From: Bradyrhizobium sp. DOA9
GTDB taxonomy: Bacteria; Pseudomonadota; Alphaproteobacteria; Rhizobiales; Xanthobacteraceae
Assembly (NCBI RefSeq): GCF_000617845.2
Contig: NZ_DF820425.1
Coordinates: 5,135,725 to 5,199,724 of the forward strand
Direction: 5' to 3'
DNA length: 64,000 bases
A model generated the notes under the pieces. The model did no database searches and was not told where the DNA came from. It worked only from the letters and a program-made list of their open reading frames with translations. The position numbers and the translations under genes were made by a program. Shown here piece after piece: positions 37,390 to 47,000 of the stretch. Within the stretch, counting starts at the first letter, position 1. The number at the start of each line of letters is the position of its first letter.

Positions 37390-38313
37390 TTACTTCTTGC
37401 CGCTGGCCGCGGCGACCTCGGCCGCGAAGTCGCTTTCCTGCTTCTCGATTCCCTCGCCGAGAGCATAGCGCACAAAGCCGGCGATCTTCACGGTGCCGCC
37501 GACCTTGCCCTCGGCCTCCTTCACCGCCTGCGCCACCGACTTGCCGGTGTCGTGGATGAAGGCCTGCTCGAGCAGGCAGACTTCCTTGTAGTAGGTCTTG
37601 AGGCCGGACTCGACGATCTTCTCGATCACGTTCTCTGGCTTGCCCTGCTGACGGTACTTGTCGGCGAGCACGTCCTTCTCGCGCTTGACCACGGCCGGAT
37701 CGAGGCCGGACGGATCGAGCGCCAGCGGGTTGGCAGCCGCAACGTGCATCGCGATCTGACGGCCGAGGCTAGCGAGCTCGTCGGCCTTGCCGGGCGATTC
37801 CAGCGCCACGATCACGCCCATCTTGCCAGCGCCGTCGATGACGGCCCCGTGGATGTAATGCGAGACCACGCCCTGGCTCACCTCGAGCTGGGCGGCACGG
37901 CGCAGCGTCATGTTCTCGCCGATGGTGGCGATCGCATCATTGATGGCGGTTTCGATCGTGACGTCGCCGACCTTGGCGGCCTTGATCTTCTCGACGTCCG
38001 CTCCGACGTCGAACGCGACCTGCGCGATCATCTTGACCAGGCCCTGGAACTGGCCGTTGCGCGCCACGAAGTCGGTCTCGGAGTTGACCTCGACCACGAC
38101 GCCCTTGGTGCCCTTGGTGAGCGCGCCGATCAGGCCCTCGGCCGCGACGCGGCCCGACTTCTTGGCGGCCTTGGACAGGCCCTTCTTGCGCAGCCAGTCC
38201 TGCGCCGCTTCCATGTTGCCGTCGTTTTCGGTGAGCGCGGCCTTGCAGTCCATCATGCCCGCGCCGGTCGATTCGCGCAGGTCCTTGACCATCGCAGCTG
38301 TGATCGTTGCCAT
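37390..38313 (-). CDS. tsf: Elongation factor Ts
   Basis: Nucleotide exchange factor for EF-Tu. The 307-aa product has the conserved N-terminal UBA-like domain and TDFVARN region ([32 protein letters not shown]) and a C-terminal dimerisation domain. The start [10 protein letters not shown] at 38313 has AAGGA 8 nt upstream; the longer upstream frame is discarded. Confidence 0.97.
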
Positions 38314-38445
38314 CGTTGAAATCCTTTGTGCCTGCTGGTTTGCAGCGGCGCGGCATCGAAGCGCCCCGCCGCGGTCCATCTCAGGGATTCGCGTCAACTG
38401 AAATGGTGGCCGGATCCTATCCGGCCAACCCATCGCTCTTTTTGA

Positions 38446-39441
<996 letters not shown>

Positions 39442-39554
39442 CGTTCTAATTCTCCGGTTGGTTCCTCCGGAAACGTGTGAGCAAAACGGAGCGTTCTCGC
39501 CCCGGCTGCCACCGGACGGCCTTGTGAGCCATGTTTCCGTGTGAGATGGCGCGC

Positions 39555-39582
39555 TATATAGCGCCATTTCGGCCAGAAGCAA
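39555..39582 (-). promoter_or_regulatory. Predicted rpsB-tsf promoter
   Basis: On the minus strand TTGCTT, 16 nt, then TATATA, about 115 nt before rpsB. An interrupted palindrome (ATGGCGC / GCGCCAT, 39546-39567) overlaps the -10 region and could be a control site or a leader hairpin for ribosomal feedback. Confidence 0.5.
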
Positions 39583-39598
39583 GGAAATAACGGCCTTT

Positions 39599-39636
39599 GG
39601 GGACGCCTCTAGGCTGCGTCGCTTCCCAGCGTCCCC
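39599..39636 (-). terminator. Inverted repeat downstream of the pseudo-caspase gene
   Basis: GGGGACGC / GCGTCCCC, a perfect 8-bp inverted repeat with a 22-nt loop, 15 nt beyond the stop of the upstream minus-strand gene and just before the rpsB promoter. No U-tract; it may insulate rpsB from readthrough. Confidence 0.35.
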
Positions 39637-39651
39637 TGCCCCTTAGGCCTC

Positions 39652-42249
39652 CTAGCACTTTGGCTGGCCCGGCGGGCAGCTCTTCGGTGGCGGGCCGGCC
39701 GGTCGCGGAGGCGGATGCGGCGCGGCGGCCATCGGCGGCGGCGCTGGGCGGGCCACCGGCGGCGGAGGTGGTGCCGGCCGCGCCATCGCTGGCGGAGGCG
39801 GAGGCGGCGCCGGCCGGGCGACAGGCGGCGGTGGCGCGGGCCGCGCTACCGCCACGGGCGGAGGTGCAGCCCGCGGCGGCGGAGGCGGCGCAACCCTCGG
39901 CGGAGGCGGCGGCGTCGGCCTTGCCAGGGCCTGAGGATGCGGAGGTGCAGCGGAAGGCCTGGCGGCCTGCGGCGATGGCGGTGGCCGACGGTCCTGGGCT
40001 CCGGACGGTGTCCGCGCCGCCACTGGTGGCGGCGGCGGAGGTATCGTGGGCCTGGCCGCGGTCGGGGCGGCGGGCTTGCCGGTGGCCGCGCTCGGCGGCG
40101 GCAAAGCGCCCGGCTGGGGCCCGGCCGGCCGGCCGCGGAGGTCAGGGGCAGGCGCGGTCGTTGTCCCCGGCGGTCTGGGCAAGGCCGCGGACGGGTTCGT
40201 CGCGCTTCCGGAAGCCGGCGGGAGATTGGGCGTCGTCGCCGCGTTCGGCCGGGCCGGCGGGATGTTGCCGCTCGGCGCTGTCGCTGTCGCGGCGGGCCTG
40301 CCAGGGGGCGGGACAGTCCCGGGCGCGGCCCCTGCCCCCGCCGGCGGCGGCCCGCCGGGTGTGCCGGGCACAGGGAGCGTATTGGCCTGCGGCAGCTTGG
40401 TCGGCGCCAGCGCTTGCGGGGGTGCCGCAGCGGTACCGGCGGGAGCGGTCGCGGTCGGACGAGGTGCGCCGGCCGGTGTCGCAGTCCCGGGCGCCGTTCC
40501 GGCCGGCGGGCTGCCGGGAGCTCCCGGCGCCGGCGCGATAGTGGTCTGCGGCAGCTTGGCGCCTGCGGGCGGCGGCGCTGTCGCGCCAGGCGCGACATTG
40601 GCGGGAGCCGGTGTCGCGAGACCCGGCCTCGCCATCGGCTGGATCGTCGCACTCGGCGGCATCGGCGCCTTGCCCTGCTGGATCAAGGCGGCGCGCTGGA
40701 CGACCGCCTGCGGCACGGCCGGACCTGCCGGCGTGGCGCGGCCGGCAACGGCCGGCGCCAGATTGCCCGGTCCGGGCGCCGGTCCCGCAGCCGGAGGCGG
40801 CGCCGGCGGCGGCTGGTTGATCACGGTGTTGATGACCGTCGTGTTGTGGATGTTCTGATAGATGATGTTGTTCGGCGGCGGCGCGACATAGACCGGCGGC
40901 CTGACGAACACCGGGATCGGCACGAACACCGGCTGCGGCAGCACGAACAGGCCGACCACGGGCAGCGGCGGCGGCAGCACGACGAAATCCGGCGGCGGCG
41001 GCGGCAGATAATAGACCGGCGGCGGCGGTGGCGGCGCGAAGCCGAAATCGGGATCGCTGAAATACAGCACGGGACGGTCGACATAGACCACCTCCTCCGG
41101 CGGCGGTGGCGGCACGTCGTAGTCGATCATCGCGAAGCTCGGCGGCGGCTCGGGCGGCGCGGTCAGGATCGCAAGGCGGCGCCGTGCGTCCGCCGCGTGC
41201 GGCCCGCGGGGATAGCGGCGCAGATACGACCAATAGGCCTCCGGCGTGTCGGTCCGGTAGGTTCGGCGCCAGGTGATGGCTTCGCGGCGCGCGGCAACGA
41301 TCGCCATCACGCGCTTGGCGAGCGGATCGCTCGGATAGGCCGCGAGAAACTCCTCATAGGCCGGCAGCGTGTCGCGCTCGAGCGCGGCGGCATAGGCGTC
41401 CTGCACGCCGAGATCGCGGATCGGCTTGTTGCGAATGGCGGCAACCTGGTCGGGCGCGGCCGCCGGCGGCGGCGCATCGGGCGCGCGCTCGAAGAACGAG
41501 AACGGCGCCGAGATCTTCTGCTCGTTCCAGGGCACCTGCGCGCCCTTGGAGGCTTCGTTGACGCGCAGGCGGACGCGGTCGAACACCTCGGGCAGCGGCA
41601 GGCCGCCGGTGCGGATCATCTCGGCGAGCGACTGCGCGTAGATGCCGTAGGGGCCCGGCTCCTCCGGTGCGACCGTGCCGGGCGCGGCGTTGAAGGCGAT
41701 CAGCATGTTCGCCTCGGGCTCGACCAGCGCAAGGCCGCTCGCGATCGGCTGTCCGCCCTCGATGAAGGGCTGCGCCCGGGCCGCATCGAGCACGACGATG
41801 TTGGCCTTGAGCGGAATCGCTGCGAGCTGGCGCACATAGTCACTGACGCGCAAGGCCTCGGTCGGAATGTCGGTGTCGCGGCTGATGTTGGAATCGACCG
41901 GGATGAAATAATTCTCGCCGGCGAGCTGCACGCCGTAGCCGGCAAGATAGATCATCGCGACGGTGCCCGGCCCCGACGCCTGGGCCTTCTGGATGAAATC
42001 GCGCAAGCTCTTGCGCAGCGTGTCGCCGTCGAGATCACGCGCGCCGACCACGTCGAAGCCCGCCGCCTGGAGCGTCTGTGCGATCAGACCGGCATCGTTC
42101 GCGGTGGTCGCCAGCGGCGATTTGGCATAGGCGCCGTTGCCGACCACGAGCGCGATGCGCTTCTCCTGCTGCTGGGCGCGGACCGGGCTTGCGGCAAGGA
42201 CAACGATCGGGAGGAGAAGGCAGATGAAGGCTTTGAGCGTCCCACGCAT
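39652..42249 (-). CDS. Secreted caspase-fold (C14) pseudoprotease with long Pro-rich tail
   Basis: An 865-aa protein. A signal peptide (cleavage near ASPVRAQ, residue 26) is followed by a p20 caspase-like domain (about 30-260). Active bacterial caspase homologues have AGHG and DACR; here the equivalents are YLAGYG (His replaced by Tyr105) and VVLDAARAQPF (Cys replaced by Ala157), so proteolysis is not expected. A helical region with RYPRGPHAADARRRL follows (about 320-390), then more than 400 residues rich in Pro, Ala, Gly and Thr, and a terminal CPPGQPKC. Likely a periplasmic or surface scaffold. The start at 42249 gives the signal peptide directly. Confidence 0.85.
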   Translation of the reverse strand: MRGTLKAFICLLLPIVVLAASPVRAQQQEKRIALVVGNGAYAKSPLATTANDAGLIAQTLQAAGFDVVGARDLDGDTLRKSLRDFIQKAQASGPGTVAMIYLAGYGVQLAGENYFIPVDSNISRDTDIPTEALRVSDYVRQLAAIPLKANIVVLDAARAQPFIEGGQPIASGLALVEPEANMLIAFNAAPGTVAPEEPGPYGIYAQSLAEMIRTGGLPLPEVFDRVRLRVNEASKGAQVPWNEQKISAPFSFFERAPDAPPPAAAPDQVAAIRNKPIRDLGVQDAYAAALERDTLPAYEEFLAAYPSDPLAKRVMAIVAARREAITWRRTYRTDTPEAYWSYLRRYPRGPHAADARRRLAILTAPPEPPPSFAMIDYDVPPPPPEEVVYVDRPVLYFSDPDFGFAPPPPPPVYYLPPPPPDFVVLPPPLPVVGLFVLPQPVFVPIPVFVRPPVYVAPPPNNIIYQNIHNTTVINTVINQPPPAPPPAAGPAPGPGNLAPAVAGRATPAGPAVPQAVVQRAALIQQGKAPMPPSATIQPMARPGLATPAPANVAPGATAPPPAGAKLPQTTIAPAPGAPGSPPAGTAPGTATPAGAPRPTATAPAGTAAAPPQALAPTKLPQANTLPVPGTPGGPPPAGAGAAPGTVPPPGRPAATATAPSGNIPPARPNAATTPNLPPASGSATNPSAALPRPPGTTTAPAPDLRGRPAGPQPGALPPPSAATGKPAAPTAARPTIPPPPPPVAARTPSGAQDRRPPPSPQAARPSAAPPHPQALARPTPPPPPRVAPPPPPRAAPPPVAVARPAPPPPVARPAPPPPPPAMARPAPPPPPVARPAPPPMAAAPHPPPRPAGPPPKSCPPGQPKC

Positions 42250-42439
42250 GGCTTGTGCCCGCTTTTGTCGTTGAGGTGGCCACCGCATATCAGGCGCGCG
42301 GCCAGCTGAATGGCGCTTGAACGAGAAGCGCGGATTGAGGCGACGGCATGGCGCCGCCACCCCAGTCGACTCCACGTCGAACCTCCACGTCAGGTGCAAG
42401 CCTCGCGACCGCACCGCGGCAGGAGGCTGCTCGGCCCGT

Positions 42440-43210
42440 TCAGCCCTGGACGATCAGATCGACCGTGCCCGTCGTCAGCCGATAGATGCCGCCGACGACC
42501 TTCACCTTGCTCTGCTCCACGGCCGCATTGAGAATTGGCGCGGCCGCCTTCAGCTTGGCGACGTTGTCGACCACGTTCTGCCGGATCGCGTTCTTGAGCA
42601 CATCCCCGCCCTGCTGCATCGCCGCCTTTGCGGCGGGCGCGATCGCATCGACCAGCGAGGGAATGTGCCCCGGCGGCGAGGTATTGTCCTTGATCGCCTT
42701 CAGCGTCGCATCCACCGCGCCGCAGGCATCGTGGCCGAGCACGAGGATCAGCGGCGTGTTCAGCACCGCCACCGCATATTCCATGCTTGCGATCGTCTCG
42801 GTGCCGGCAAAGTTTCCGGCGACGCGACAGACGAACAGGTCGCCGCGACCGGTGTCGAACGCATATTCCGGCGCGATGCGCGAGTCGGCACAGCTCAGCA
42901 CGGCCGCGAACGGATTCTGACCGCCGACCAGCGCCTCGCGCTCGTGCTTGAAATCGTGGCGCCGCGACACGCCGGCGACGTAGCGCCCATTGCCCTCCAT
43001 CAGCCGCTTCAGCGACGCGTCGGGCGACAGCACGTTCTGCGGCTTCGGCGGCTGCTTGGCGTCCTTGGCCAGGGCGCCGCTGGCGAAAGCTCCACCGGCG
43101 AAGGCCATGCCGAACGCGGCGGCGCCAAACAGCATCGCCGATCGCCGCGACGGCGCGATGTCTCGGCGCAGAGATTCGTGATGCAGCGAGTCAGAACACT
43201 TGTCGCACAT
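42440..43210 (-). CDS. Exported beta-carbonic anhydrase
   Basis: A 256-aa protein that interconverts CO2 and bicarbonate. The N-terminus has a twin-arginine type signal (SRRSAMLFGAAAFGMAFAGG with an AxA site), which fits export of a folded, zinc-loaded enzyme. The zinc site is complete: Cys and the Asp/Arg dyad in SCADSR, His and Cys in LGHDACGAV. ATG 43210 (MCDKCSDS) follows GAGGAG at 8 nt. Beta-class enzymes are mostly cytosolic, so periplasmic location is notable. It lies upstream of the pseudo-caspase on the same strand. Confidence 0.9.
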   Translation of the reverse strand: MCDKCSDSLHHESLRRDIAPSRRSAMLFGAAAFGMAFAGGAFASGALAKDAKQPPKPQNVLSPDASLKRLMEGNGRYVAGVSRRHDFKHEREALVGGQNPFAAVLSCADSRIAPEYAFDTGRGDLFVCRVAGNFAGTETIASMEYAVAVLNTPLILVLGHDACGAVDATLKAIKDNTSPPGHIPSLVDAIAPAAKAAMQQGGDVLKNAIRQNVVDNVAKLKAAAPILNAAVEQSKVKVVGGIYRLTTGTVDLIVQG

Positions 43211-43460
43211 GTGACATCTCCTCGGGGTCAATGGAAACGATGCGTCGCGAAGATAGGAGCGCCGATATGAAGAAAGAACAAATGCCAGTTGATGCAACCG
43301 ATGATTGCTGCACTGCGCGCCATGCTGCAAGCCGAAATGCGTGCCCATCGCGCGCCCGACGATTGCACGGACATGCGTCCGCCAGCATGCATTCGAGATC
43401 AGCCCGCCAAGGACCCCCTGTGCCCGGCGCGATCAGAGACACGTCGTCGTAGCGCGCGCC

Positions 43461-43988
43461 CTACTCGACGGCTTCCAGCTCCGCGAGCTTCGTGCGCGCG
43501 GTTGCCTCGTCCAGCGCGACGAGCTCGCCCGGCCCGAGATTGGCCTCGCCCGCCGTCGCGACGGACACGACCGCAAGTCCGGCCAAACCGCCGAGCACGG
43601 CGCCGCCCATGGCGGCATCGTGCCTGGCGCTGCTCTTGATCAGGTAGAAATGCGTCCGGCCCGCCTCCATGACGATCTCGCGCTTGGTCTCGCCCGGAAA
43701 CATCAGCTCAGTGAGCAGCACGTCGTGACGTCCGGCAGGCCGGTCGGCATAGGCATATTTGCCGGCCACGATTTTTCCGAGCGGCGCACCGTCGAGCTTC
43801 ACCTCGCAGCCGCAAATGGCCATGCTCAGGCCGCTCCTCTTGTCCTGCAGGAACACCACACGCGCGTACCCTGCGCGTGGAGGACCAACCTTTTTCGACA
43901 CCGACGCAAAGTCCGTTCCGACCTGATTGCTGACGCACCCCGTCAGCATGGCACAAACGGCCAACAACAACGCACCCTGTCGCAGCAT
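43461..43988 (-). CDS. DUF2846-like lipoprotein
   Basis: A 175-aa protein with a lipoprotein signal and lipobox MLTGC (Cys at about residue 18). The mature domain, with ARVVFLQDKRSG, VKLDGAPLGKIVAGKYAY and PAGRHDVLL, is a beta-sandwich pattern like DUF2846. A glycine-rich hydrophobic stretch (GGAVLGGLAGLAVVSVA) near residue 135 may insert into membrane. ATG 43988 is chosen because the signal peptide starts there. Function unknown. Confidence 0.78.
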   Translation of the reverse strand: MLRQGALLLAVCAMLTGCVSNQVGTDFASVSKKVGPPRAGYARVVFLQDKRSGLSMAICGCEVKLDGAPLGKIVAGKYAYADRPAGRHDVLLTELMFPGETKREIVMEAGRTHFYLIKSSARHDAAMGGAVLGGLAGLAVVSVATAGEANLGPGELVALDEATARTKLAELEAVE

Positions 43989-44095
43989 TACAGCCCCATT
44001 CCATTCCCCGGGGCACATGCTAATCGGAATCAGCGCTGGGTTGCAACCGATGCAGCATGACAACTTTGCAAAAACCGGAACGCGCGGCGAAGAAG

Positions 44096-47000
44096 CTAAA
44101 GCTGTTGCACGTCCACCACGCCCGCGACCGCCTTGATCGCGCCGGCGATCTGCGGCGAGACCTTGAAGCGGCCGGGCAGCTTCATCTCCACCTCGGTCTC
44201 GAGGTCGAGCATCAGCACCAGCGAGACCTCGCCGTCGCCGCTTCCGCGCGGTGCGATGCCGGGACTGCCGACCTTCGGCGCGCCGCCGTTGGAGGCCGCC
44301 ATGTCGGGCCCGGCGAGACGCTTGGCGATCGAGTCCAGCGGCTTGGTATCGCGCAGGAAGATGCGCAGGCCCTTCTGCGTCTTGGCCGCGGCGTCATCGA
44401 GCGGCTCGGCGTGCAGCACGCGGGCGCGGACGTCCTCGCCCTGCAGCTCGGCCCCCAGCTGCAGCAGCACGGCCGCACCCGGCTCCAGCACGTCGCGATA
44501 TTGCGCAAGGCCTTCGGAGAACAGCACCGCCTCGAAATGGCCGGTGGGATCGGACAGCCCCATGATGCCCATCTTGTTGCCGGTCTTGGTGCGGCGCTCC
44601 ATGCGCGAGACAACGGTCGCGGCGACCTTGCCGGCGGTGGCGCCGGTCTTCACCGCGCGCGAGAACTCGGCCCAGCTCTGCACCCGCAGCCGCTTCAGCA
44701 CGGTCGCGTAATCGTCGAGCGGATGTCCCGACAGGAAGAAGCCGATCGCGTCGTATTCGCGGCGCAGCCGTTCGGCCGGCAGCCACGGCTCGACCTGCGG
44801 CAGCATGATGGTCGGTGCATCCGCCGACATGCCGAACATGTCGTTCTGGCCGATCGTCGCAGCTTCATGCGCGCGCTGGCAGGCGGCGAGGATCGCGTCC
44901 GCACCGGCAAAGACACGCGCCCGGTTCGGCTCCAGCGTGTCGAAGGCGCCGGCGGCGGCGAGACTTTCGATGATGCGCTTGTTGATCGCGCGCGGCGAGA
45001 CGCGCGCGGCGAAATCGGCGAGCGAGGTGAACAGGCCGCCTCGGCTGCGCTCCGCGATGATCTGCTCGATCGCCTGGATGCCGACGCCCTTGAGCGCGGC
45101 GAGCGCGTAGTAGATCGTGTTCTCGCCGACCTCGAAGGTCGCGCCCGACCGGTTGATGTTCGGCGGCTCGACCTTGATGCCGAGACGCTGCGCCTCGGAG
45201 CGGAATTCGGACAGCTTGTCGGTGTTGTTCAGATCGAGCGTCATGGACGCTGCGATGAACTCGACCGGGTAATGCGCCTTCATATAGGCGGTATGGTACG
45301 ATACCAGCGCGTAAGCCGCAGCGTGACTCTTGTTGAAGCCGTAGTCGGCGAATTTTGCCAGCAGCTCGAAGATGGTCTCGGCCTGCCCCTTCGGCACGCC
45401 GTTCTTCACCGCGCCCGCGACGAAGATGTCGCGCTGCTTGTCCATCTCGGCGCGGATCTTCTTGCCCATGGCGCGGCGCAAGAGGTCGGCGTCGCCGAGC
45501 GAATAGCCCGACATCACCTGCGCGATCTGCATCACCTGCTCCTGGTAGATGATGACGCCGAAGGTCTCCTTCAGGATCGGCTCCAGCACCGGATGCAGAT
45601 ATTCCGGCTCCTCGTCGCCGTGCTTGCGCGCGCAATAGGTCGGGATGTTCGCCATCGGGCCCGGCCGATAGAGCGCGACCAGCGCGATGATGTCCTCGAA
45701 ACGGTCCGGCCGCATGTCGATCAGCGCCCGCCGCATGCCCTGGCTTTCAACCTGGAACACGCCGACCACGTCGCCGCGCGCCAGCATCTGGTAACTCTCG
45801 GCATCGTCGATCGGCAGCGTGGCGAGATCGACGTCGATGCCGCGCGGTTTGAGCAGCTTGCAGGCGACGTCGAGCACGGTGAGGGTCTTCAGGCCGAGGA
45901 AGTCGAACTTCACGAGCCCCGCCGGCTCGACCCATTTCATGTTGAACTGGGTCACCGGCATGTCGGATTTGGGATCGCGGTAGAGCGGCACGAGCTCGCT
46001 CAGGGGACGATCGCCGATCACGATGCCGGCTGCGTGGGTCGAGGCGTGGCGGGTCAGGCCTTCCAGACGCTGGGCGATGTCGAAGGCGCGCGCCACCACG
46101 GGATCTTCGTCGCGGAACGCCTGCAGCTTCGGCTCGCTCTCGATCGCGGCGGCCAGCGTCACCGGCGCCGCCGGATTTTGCGGCACCAGCTTGGTCAGCT
46201 TGTCGACCTGGCCATAGGGCATCTGCAGCACGCGGCCGACGTCGCGCAGCACGCCGCGCGCCTGCAGCGTGCCGAAGGTGATGATCTGCGCGACCTGGTC
46301 GCGGCCGTAGCGCTGCTGCACGTAACTGATCACCTCGCCGCGGCGATCCTGGCAGAAGTCGATGTCGAAGTCCGGCATCGAGACGCGTTCCGGATTGAGG
46401 AAGCGCTCGAACAGCAGGCCGAACCTGATCGGGTCGAGGTCGGTGATGGTCAGCGCCCACGCCACCAGCGAGCCAGCGCCGGAGCCGCGGCCCGGCCCGA
46501 CCGGAATGCCCTGGCTCTTCGCCCATTTGATGAAGTCGGACACGATCAGGAAGTAGCCCGCGTATTTCATGCGGGTGATGACGTCGAGCTCGAAGGCGAG
46601 CCGCTTGGCGTAGGTCTCGTCCGTCGTGCCCGGCGACAGGCCGTGCACGCTGAGCCGCTTGGCGAGCCCCTCCTCCGCCTGCCGCTTCAATTCCGCCGCC
46701 TCGACTGCGGCGGCATCCGAGCTCTGCGCAGCACCGACGGTGAAGAACGGCAGGATGGGCTTGCGCGTCATCGGCCGGAACGAGCAGCGCTCGGCGATCT
46801 CCACCGTCGAGGCCAGCGCCTCCGGAATGTCGGCGAACAGCAGCGCCATCTCCGCGCGCGTCTTGAAGCGATGATCCGGCGTCAGCTGCACGCGGTCGGT
46901 CTCGGCGATCAGCCGGCCGCCCGCGATGCACAGCAGCGCATCATGCGCTTCGTAATCGTCGGTGGTTGCGAAATACGGCTCGTTGGTCGCAACCAGCGGC

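Follow-up and report, generated by a model that had tools for sequence, protein, structure and literature searches.

Many metacaspase homologues of alphaproteobacteria lack the catalytic His-Cys dyad, mostly with Tyr in place of His, and Ser is given as the commonest replacement of Cys in prokaryotic metacaspases with a substituted dyad (Asplund-Samuelsson et al. 2012, PMC3501461). A p20 domain with a replaced dyad defines the pseudo-orthocaspases as set out in Klemencic et al. 2019 (PMC6426788), where the Tyr-Ala (YA) type appears as a common one in Rhizobiales and is described with a prolonged C-terminus devoid of identifiable domains. The same source proposes a link between alphaproteobacterial pseudo-orthocaspases and anoxygenic photosynthesis. 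The sole functional study of a bacterial pseudo-orthocaspase that was found in the open-licence literature concerns SyOC from Synechocystis, the deletion of which raised tolerance to H2O2 (PMC7889975); none was found there for the YA subgroup, which is not proof of absence. Unlike these dyad-less proteins, the MALT1 paracaspase is an active arginine-specific protease, described as reading the P1 arginine of its substrates through Asp365, Asp462 and Glu500 (PMC4357240).

The protein analyzed here belongs to a class that is already described, since it corresponds to the YA pseudo-orthocaspases of Rhizobiales in PMC6426788 by its p20 domain, the Tyr-Ala pair at the dyad positions and the prolonged, domain-less C-terminus, as well as by the pair of S1 aspartates reported there as conserved. 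A terminal cysteine pair, a helical module, the decay of a third S1 acid and the dnaE-rpsB locus go beyond the account given in the available parts of that source. The Ala at the Cys position differs from the Ser that prevails according to PMC3501461. SyOC, as described, is similar in being a bacterial dead p20 protein whose hosts often lack an active relative (PMC7889975), but it is cyanobacterial.

The gene lies on the minus strand at positions 39652..42249 of a 64,000-nucleotide stretch from Bradyrhizobium sp. DOA9 (positions 5,135,725 to 5,199,724 of NZ_DF820425.1, the larger contig of the genome), hereafter the window, and is delimited by its reading frame, the Pfam C14 match and the orthologues within the genus. 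The frame is open from an ATG at 42249 and encodes 865 residues followed by a stop codon. This translation contains AGYG at residues 103-106, including Tyr105, and DAAR at residues 155-158, including Ala157, and it ends in KSCPPGQPKC. The start codon is uncertain, as the frame runs upstream to a GTG at 42414, and no clear ribosome-binding site was seen by eye. Residues 1-25 (42175..42249, minus strand) have the features of a signal peptide, judged by eye, with a hydrophobic core and an A-x-A sequence before residue 26, and cleavage would occur before Gln26. This region diverges fast (25-88% identity to orthologues), and the AQQ just after it is conserved. Between 39300 and 42500, no promoter-like site was detected, and the single terminator-like site compares with 1.2 expected; positions 38000-44500 gave no Rfam match. 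An 864-residue open frame is also found antisense to the gene (39715-42309, plus strand), which is probably a by-product of the high G+C content and of the Pro, Ala and Arg codons.

The caspase p20-type domain comprises residues 30-249 (41503..42162, minus strand), as delimited by Pfam, AlphaFold2, the match to MALT1 and dN/dS. Pfam Peptidase_C14 matches these residues over model positions 1-231 of 233 with an E-value of 2.1e-38 and 132.7 bits, well above the cut-off of 21.4, and the score for the EACC1-associated caspase family (NF047832) is 24.4 bits against an NCBIfam cut-off of 140. A first AlphaFold2 model, based on 57 close relatives, was poor (pLDDT 59), and its structural comparison yielded solely caspase-type matches. 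The model of residues 25-262 obtained with 41 more varied sequences, an alignment widened with 17 of the 22 viral-contig relatives found by a His/Cys query, reached a pLDDT of 92.7 and a pTM of 0.91. A Foldseek search of solved structures with this model revealed the MALT1 paracaspase as the nearest one (E 3.0e-16, TM-score of 0.79 by query length), and a sequence-profile search also placed MALT1 first among solved structures (E 3.7e-19). The model superimposes on MALT1 chain 8v4x_E with a Z score of 26.0 and a root mean square deviation of 2.5 Å over 208 residues, and aligns with the catalytic domain from 337 to 563. On the lack of a separate p10 domain, a further trait of pseudo-orthocaspases in PMC6426788, two observations diverge: no second Pfam domain is present, but this alignment takes in the C-terminal half of the MALT1 domain. 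The resemblance lies in the fold and in two of the three S1 acids at aligned positions, whereas the identity is about 20% and the Bradyrhizobium protein has neither Ig nor death domains. Tyr105 (codon 41935..41937) and Ala157 (codon 41779..41781, both minus strand) occupy the columns of the MALT1 catalytic residues, which we take to be H415 and C464, a numbering consistent with the spacing of the alignment. Based on the C14 match, the AlphaFold2 model and the MALT1 match, an intact caspase fold is a high-confidence prediction, and the two columns are the catalytic ones. An earlier sequence-only reading had described the replacement of both residues within an intact fold and proposed structure prediction as a check, and the alignments and the model agree with it on both counts.

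The Tyr-Ala pair is nearly invariant among close relatives. The close set is made up of the best 80 of 152 related loci; nearly all have Bradyrhizobium in their titles, and there is one Frankia record and one Bradyrhizobiaceae MAG. The pair is Tyr-Ala in 79 of them and Tyr-Gly in one (L070), with His or Cys in none. The 30 best loci from a search of 149 genomes of the family are all Tyr-Ala. At larger distances the positions drift: the 23 loci of an order-level search carry YA, YG, YS, QA, EA or HG, and a member from a viral contig (L198) carries RA. Further variation is seen in 67 representatives with less than 90% identity, all selected among rows lacking an intact His-Cys pair; that none of them has the pair follows from the definition of the set. 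Their His position is occupied by Tyr (56), His (4), Phe (2), Gln (2), Val (1), Glu (1) or Arg (1), and their Cys position by Ala (54), Gly (5), Ser (5) or Thr (3). Fixation of Tyr and Ala, a point that the sequence-only reading had put up for checking, therefore holds nearly without exception close to the window sequence, but not across the family, where seven residues alternate at the His position. His remains in four rows, whereas Cys is never found with another residue at the His position (0 rows), a pattern that hints at, but does not prove, a loss of the nucleophile before that of the His. Two contrary cases had been named at the outset, close orthologues with His/Cys and a different catalytic pair, and both were looked for: the former is absent from the best 80 of 152 loci, and position 157 shows no conserved substitute nucleophile in the 67 representatives. 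An alternative catalytic pair was rejected because the dyad positions drift. With Tyr105 and Ala157 in place of the dyad, the protein falls outside the active orthocaspases and within the pseudo-orthocaspases as defined in PMC6426788, and to judge from these alignments it is most likely non-proteolytic.

The age of the loss was assessed with an unrooted tree of 100 p20 rows from which the dyad columns were removed. The rows comprise 10 of the 80 close loci together with the distinct p20 rows of loci L081-L174 that have at least 180 aligned residues, excluding own-genome duplicates and loci fetched later. Beyond one branch with a support of 100/98 lie 64 dead rows and not a single His/Cys row, and the neighbouring group is formed by 21 His/Cys rows (support 100/100). 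The His/Cys label requires two changes on the tree, the second of which sets apart another dead group (FS, YS, VS). The loss of the dyad is old and common to one clade; the absence of His-Cys rows inside this clade is based on the tree and on the 23 order-level rows.

The pseudo-orthocaspase gene is nearly core in the genus and resides at a fixed locus in Bradyrhizobium. Orthologues were found at E<=1e-100 in 22 of 25 genus genomes, and the closest orthologues of the window protein reach 96% identity. A same-strand dnaE is present in all of the best 80 of 152 loci, upstream of the gene in those listed in detail, and rpsB in each of the 62 among them that have at least 3.2 kb of downstream sequence. 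Three of the 25 genomes lack the gene, and reading through the dnaE-rpsB interval in two of these, G451 (a single contig) and G448, revealed no copy, from which it follows that the gene is dispensable, not essential. In the window, positions 38446-39441 encode a 331-residue protein, which we take to be the rpsB product and which presumably extends far past the C-terminus of a typical S2 protein. Near the pseudo-orthocaspase gene, 67 of the best 80 of 152 loci carry a gene, located at positions 42440-43348 in the window, whose product begins with a signal-like sequence and which we take to be carbonic-anhydrase-like; its presence and place vary. The record titled Frankia sp. RB7 (L043, JAUEPE010000002.1) contains an orthologue of 91% identity and a Bradyrhizobium-type dnaE at the same locus, and looks mislabelled or contaminated. 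The search of viral contigs yielded one member of the family, L198, which combines the Arg-Ala dyad positions with a terminal cysteine pair; its neighbours resemble ordinary bacterial genes by eye, and the contig may be partly chromosomal.

The C-terminal half of the protein is Pro-rich and ends in CPPGQPKC, as the sequence-only reading had described, and comprises roughly 500 residues, where that reading gave over 400. What follows the p20 domain can be divided into four parts on the minus strand. The first, at residues 279-365 (41155..41415), is a helical repeat-like module (RREAxxWRR ... AYWSYLRRYP) recognized by its conserved columns and model helices: all 23 pseudo rows share the same residue in fourteen columns, and the helices have a block pLDDT of 77-95 in the first, poor model. 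The module resembles the stretch that follows the p20 domain in two active paralogues of the window genome (E 2.0e-6 and 7.7e-5) and, for this reason, probably derives from an active ancestor. Matches of the module elsewhere, to BamD (whole protein), TPR_14 and CpoB, are all below threshold, TPR_14 scoring 13.4 bits against a cut-off of 23.5. The approximately 600 residues after the p20 domain have no Pfam match in a whole-protein search at E<=1, with weak TPR-like hits in the helical part, in accordance with the domain-less C-terminus of the YA subgroup. The second part, a Pro- and aromatic-rich segment at residues 366-485 (40795..41154), was delimited by its coverage in pseudo and in His/Cys rows; the mean coverage of residues 366-430 is 91% in 15 distant pseudo rows versus 46% in four His/Cys rows, and a search of its own genome with the segment matched only itself. 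Pro accounts for 33% of residues 366-500 and 34% of residues 501-866, the latter with an additional 24% of Ala.

The third part is a low-complexity Pro/Ala-rich tail of variable length at residues 486-855 (39685..40794), distinguished by its composition, tandem repeats, dN/dS and many gaps; its length is free to change while its end stays. The end, residues 858-865 (39655..39678), holds the cysteine pair of CPPGQPKC. Since Cys10 lies within the signal peptide, Cys858 and Cys865 are the two cysteines of the mature protein. Leaving out loci that end before the stop codon, two cysteines occur within the final 25 residues in 76 of the 81 close rows that are complete and in 14 of the 15 distant dead rows, and the full pair is missing from 5 of the 81; the sole distant exception is the N-terminal piece of a split copy (L169), the C-terminal piece of which was counted as having the pair. 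The conservation of the pair fits a disulfide, which the sequence-only reading had suggested beside a tail that may span the periplasm or cell wall. His/Cys orthocaspases from this genome and family (for example L081 and L083) belong to the neighbouring tree group and share a related helical stretch, but they have an intact dyad, the four rows that were aligned lack most of the Pro-rich segment, and just 8 of the 32 rows carry at least two cysteines within the final 25 residues.

The substrate groove is, to judge from the alignments, kept in part and not whole. The residues aligned with Asp365, Asp462 and Glu500 of MALT1 are Asp52 (42094..42096), Asp155 (41785..41787) and Glu196 (41662..41664, all minus strand). 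Asp52 is found in all 66 ungapped representatives and Asp155 in all 67, and both are present in all 23 order-level rows. Ranked by conservation among 228 columns, Asp155 is 3rd and Asp52 8th, whereas the dyad columns are 85th and 87th. By contrast, the Glu500 position is acidic in 36 of 67 representatives and Asp in 33 of 33 His/Cys rows. The position of residue 202 is Ser in all 33 His/Cys rows, and Gly takes its place in 95% of the 117 close dead rows and in 83% of the 18 distant ones. The groove is regarded as incomplete because the third S1 acid is largely lost and the Ser at 202 replaced. Retention of a complete S1 pocket was rejected, the third acid being unconserved in the 67 representatives. 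The partly kept pocket may hold a basic group, or Asp52 and Asp155 may now be structural.

Decay of the gene is an alternative reading with next to no probability. A distant copy (L169) is split into two frames, representing either a broken gene or an assembly error, and the gene is missing from 3 of 25 genus genomes, but there is no stop within the match in the 22 genus genomes that carry it, the C-terminal end is conserved, and the p20 domain is under purifying selection. The median dN/dS relative to the window sequence is 0.11 over residues 26-255 (p20), 0.13 over residues 256-365, 0.30 over residues 366-485 and 0.36 over the tail, each from 14 pairs that share the window sequence and are not independent. 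Recent decay was rejected because the best 80 of 152 loci contain no His/Cys and because of this selection, and the maintenance without a protease dyad that the sequence-only reading had proposed is supported by the old loss, seen in the tree and in those loci, and by the low p20 value. That the protein is still a hydrolase using other catalytic residues is scarcely more credible: in 8 of 67 representatives Cys has given way to Ser or Thr, whereas the other 59 have Ala or Gly, and the His position accommodates seven different residues. A function in anoxygenic photosynthesis, proposed in PMC6426788, is also very improbable for this protein. The orthologue, defined by at least 53% identity in presence sets compiled by hand, occurs in 4 of 20 genomes with a reaction centre versus 35 of 129 without (Fisher p 0.59, with no phylogenetic correction), and the wider dead clade in 6 of 20 versus 46 of 129 (p 0.80, likewise uncorrected). 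The window genome has no reaction centre, and of the two genus genomes that have one, G444 carries the gene and G442 lacks it. The distribution of reaction centres lends no support to the link for this subgroup, a result that applies to neither the cyanobacterial nor the other dead types.

Two further alternatives assign a binding role to the dead domain, and both are unlikely, though not to the same negligible degree as the preceding ones. In one of them, the groove would be a receptor for basic peptides, binding Arg/Lys peptides through Asp52 and Asp155 and holding or protecting them. It draws on the alignment of these residues with the S1 aspartates of MALT1, on their invariance in the dead clade and on the high conservation of the two aspartates in prokaryotic pseudo-orthocaspases reported in PMC6426788; the loss of the third acid in 31 of 67 representatives, set against its presence in 33 of 33 His/Cys rows, the Ala at the Gly416 position in 10 of 67 and the loss of Ser at 202 make it a doubtful candidate. 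The other, which we consider slightly less plausible still, is a regulator of the cFLIP or TbMC4 kind, in which the dead domain would pair with active orthocaspases of the same cell, or be processed by them, and thereby control them. The window genome (G000) offers potential partners, with 17 C14 domains of which 13 are His/Cys and four dead (YA, YS and two FS); dimerisation is described for caspases and MALT1 (PMC4357240), and PMC6426788 provides precedents in cFLIP-L and TbMC4. In 8 of the 17 genomes chosen, however (G106, G139, G127, G132, G101, G039, G037 and G003, six of them at least 98% complete), no C14 domain other than the dead protein was found; the 17 were picked for few homologues or distant members, so that the proportion is not a frequency. 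Genomes of this kind make it unlikely that the protein serves in general as a partner of active orthocaspases. The three further dead C14 proteins of the window genome (L119, L125 and L088; two Phe-Ser and one Tyr-Ser) form a separate dead group in the tree together with a Val-Ser relative.

The reading that we favour, and that is probably but by no means certainly correct, is that of a secreted dead orthocaspase kept at a fixed Bradyrhizobium locus as a protein-binding scaffold of the envelope. The protein would be exported through its signal peptide, and the dead caspase domain, along with the conserved helical module, would bind a partner protein or peptide. With two S1 aspartates still in place, the groove could accommodate a basic side chain, the long Pro/Ala tail would serve as a flexible spacer, and the tip of the tail, closed by a disulfide between its two cysteines, may dock in the envelope or serve as an anchor there. 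The protein acts without active relatives in several genomes, given that it is the only C14 domain found there. A bolder version would make these proteins stand-alone envelope adaptors, in which the S1 aspartates capture basic peptides or protein ends, the module binds a second partner and the disulfide-tipped tether reaches another layer. Taken jointly with an old Hyphomicrobiales family, loss of the nucleophile at the base of the clade and a tether of several hundred residues, this adaptor arrangement is speculative and, as a whole, improbable.

The computations show the predicted fold, the missing dyad, the age of its loss, the selection on the domain, and that some hosts carry no active relative. 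What they add to the described class is that one clade lost the dyad long ago, that the cysteine tip and the helical module are conserved, that the groove is kept in part, that the locus is fixed and that in some hosts the protein is alone. Bacterial caspase homologues without catalytic residues are widespread, and the present one constitutes a clean case, with one old loss, no His-Cys row in the clade of this tree, strong selection and a fixed locus in Bradyrhizobium. The hosts in which the dead protein is the only C14 domain allow a direct test of what the caspase fold does when it neither cuts nor has active partners. If the adaptor arrangement were true, the caspase fold would be a recognition device workable in cells that have no active caspase homologue.
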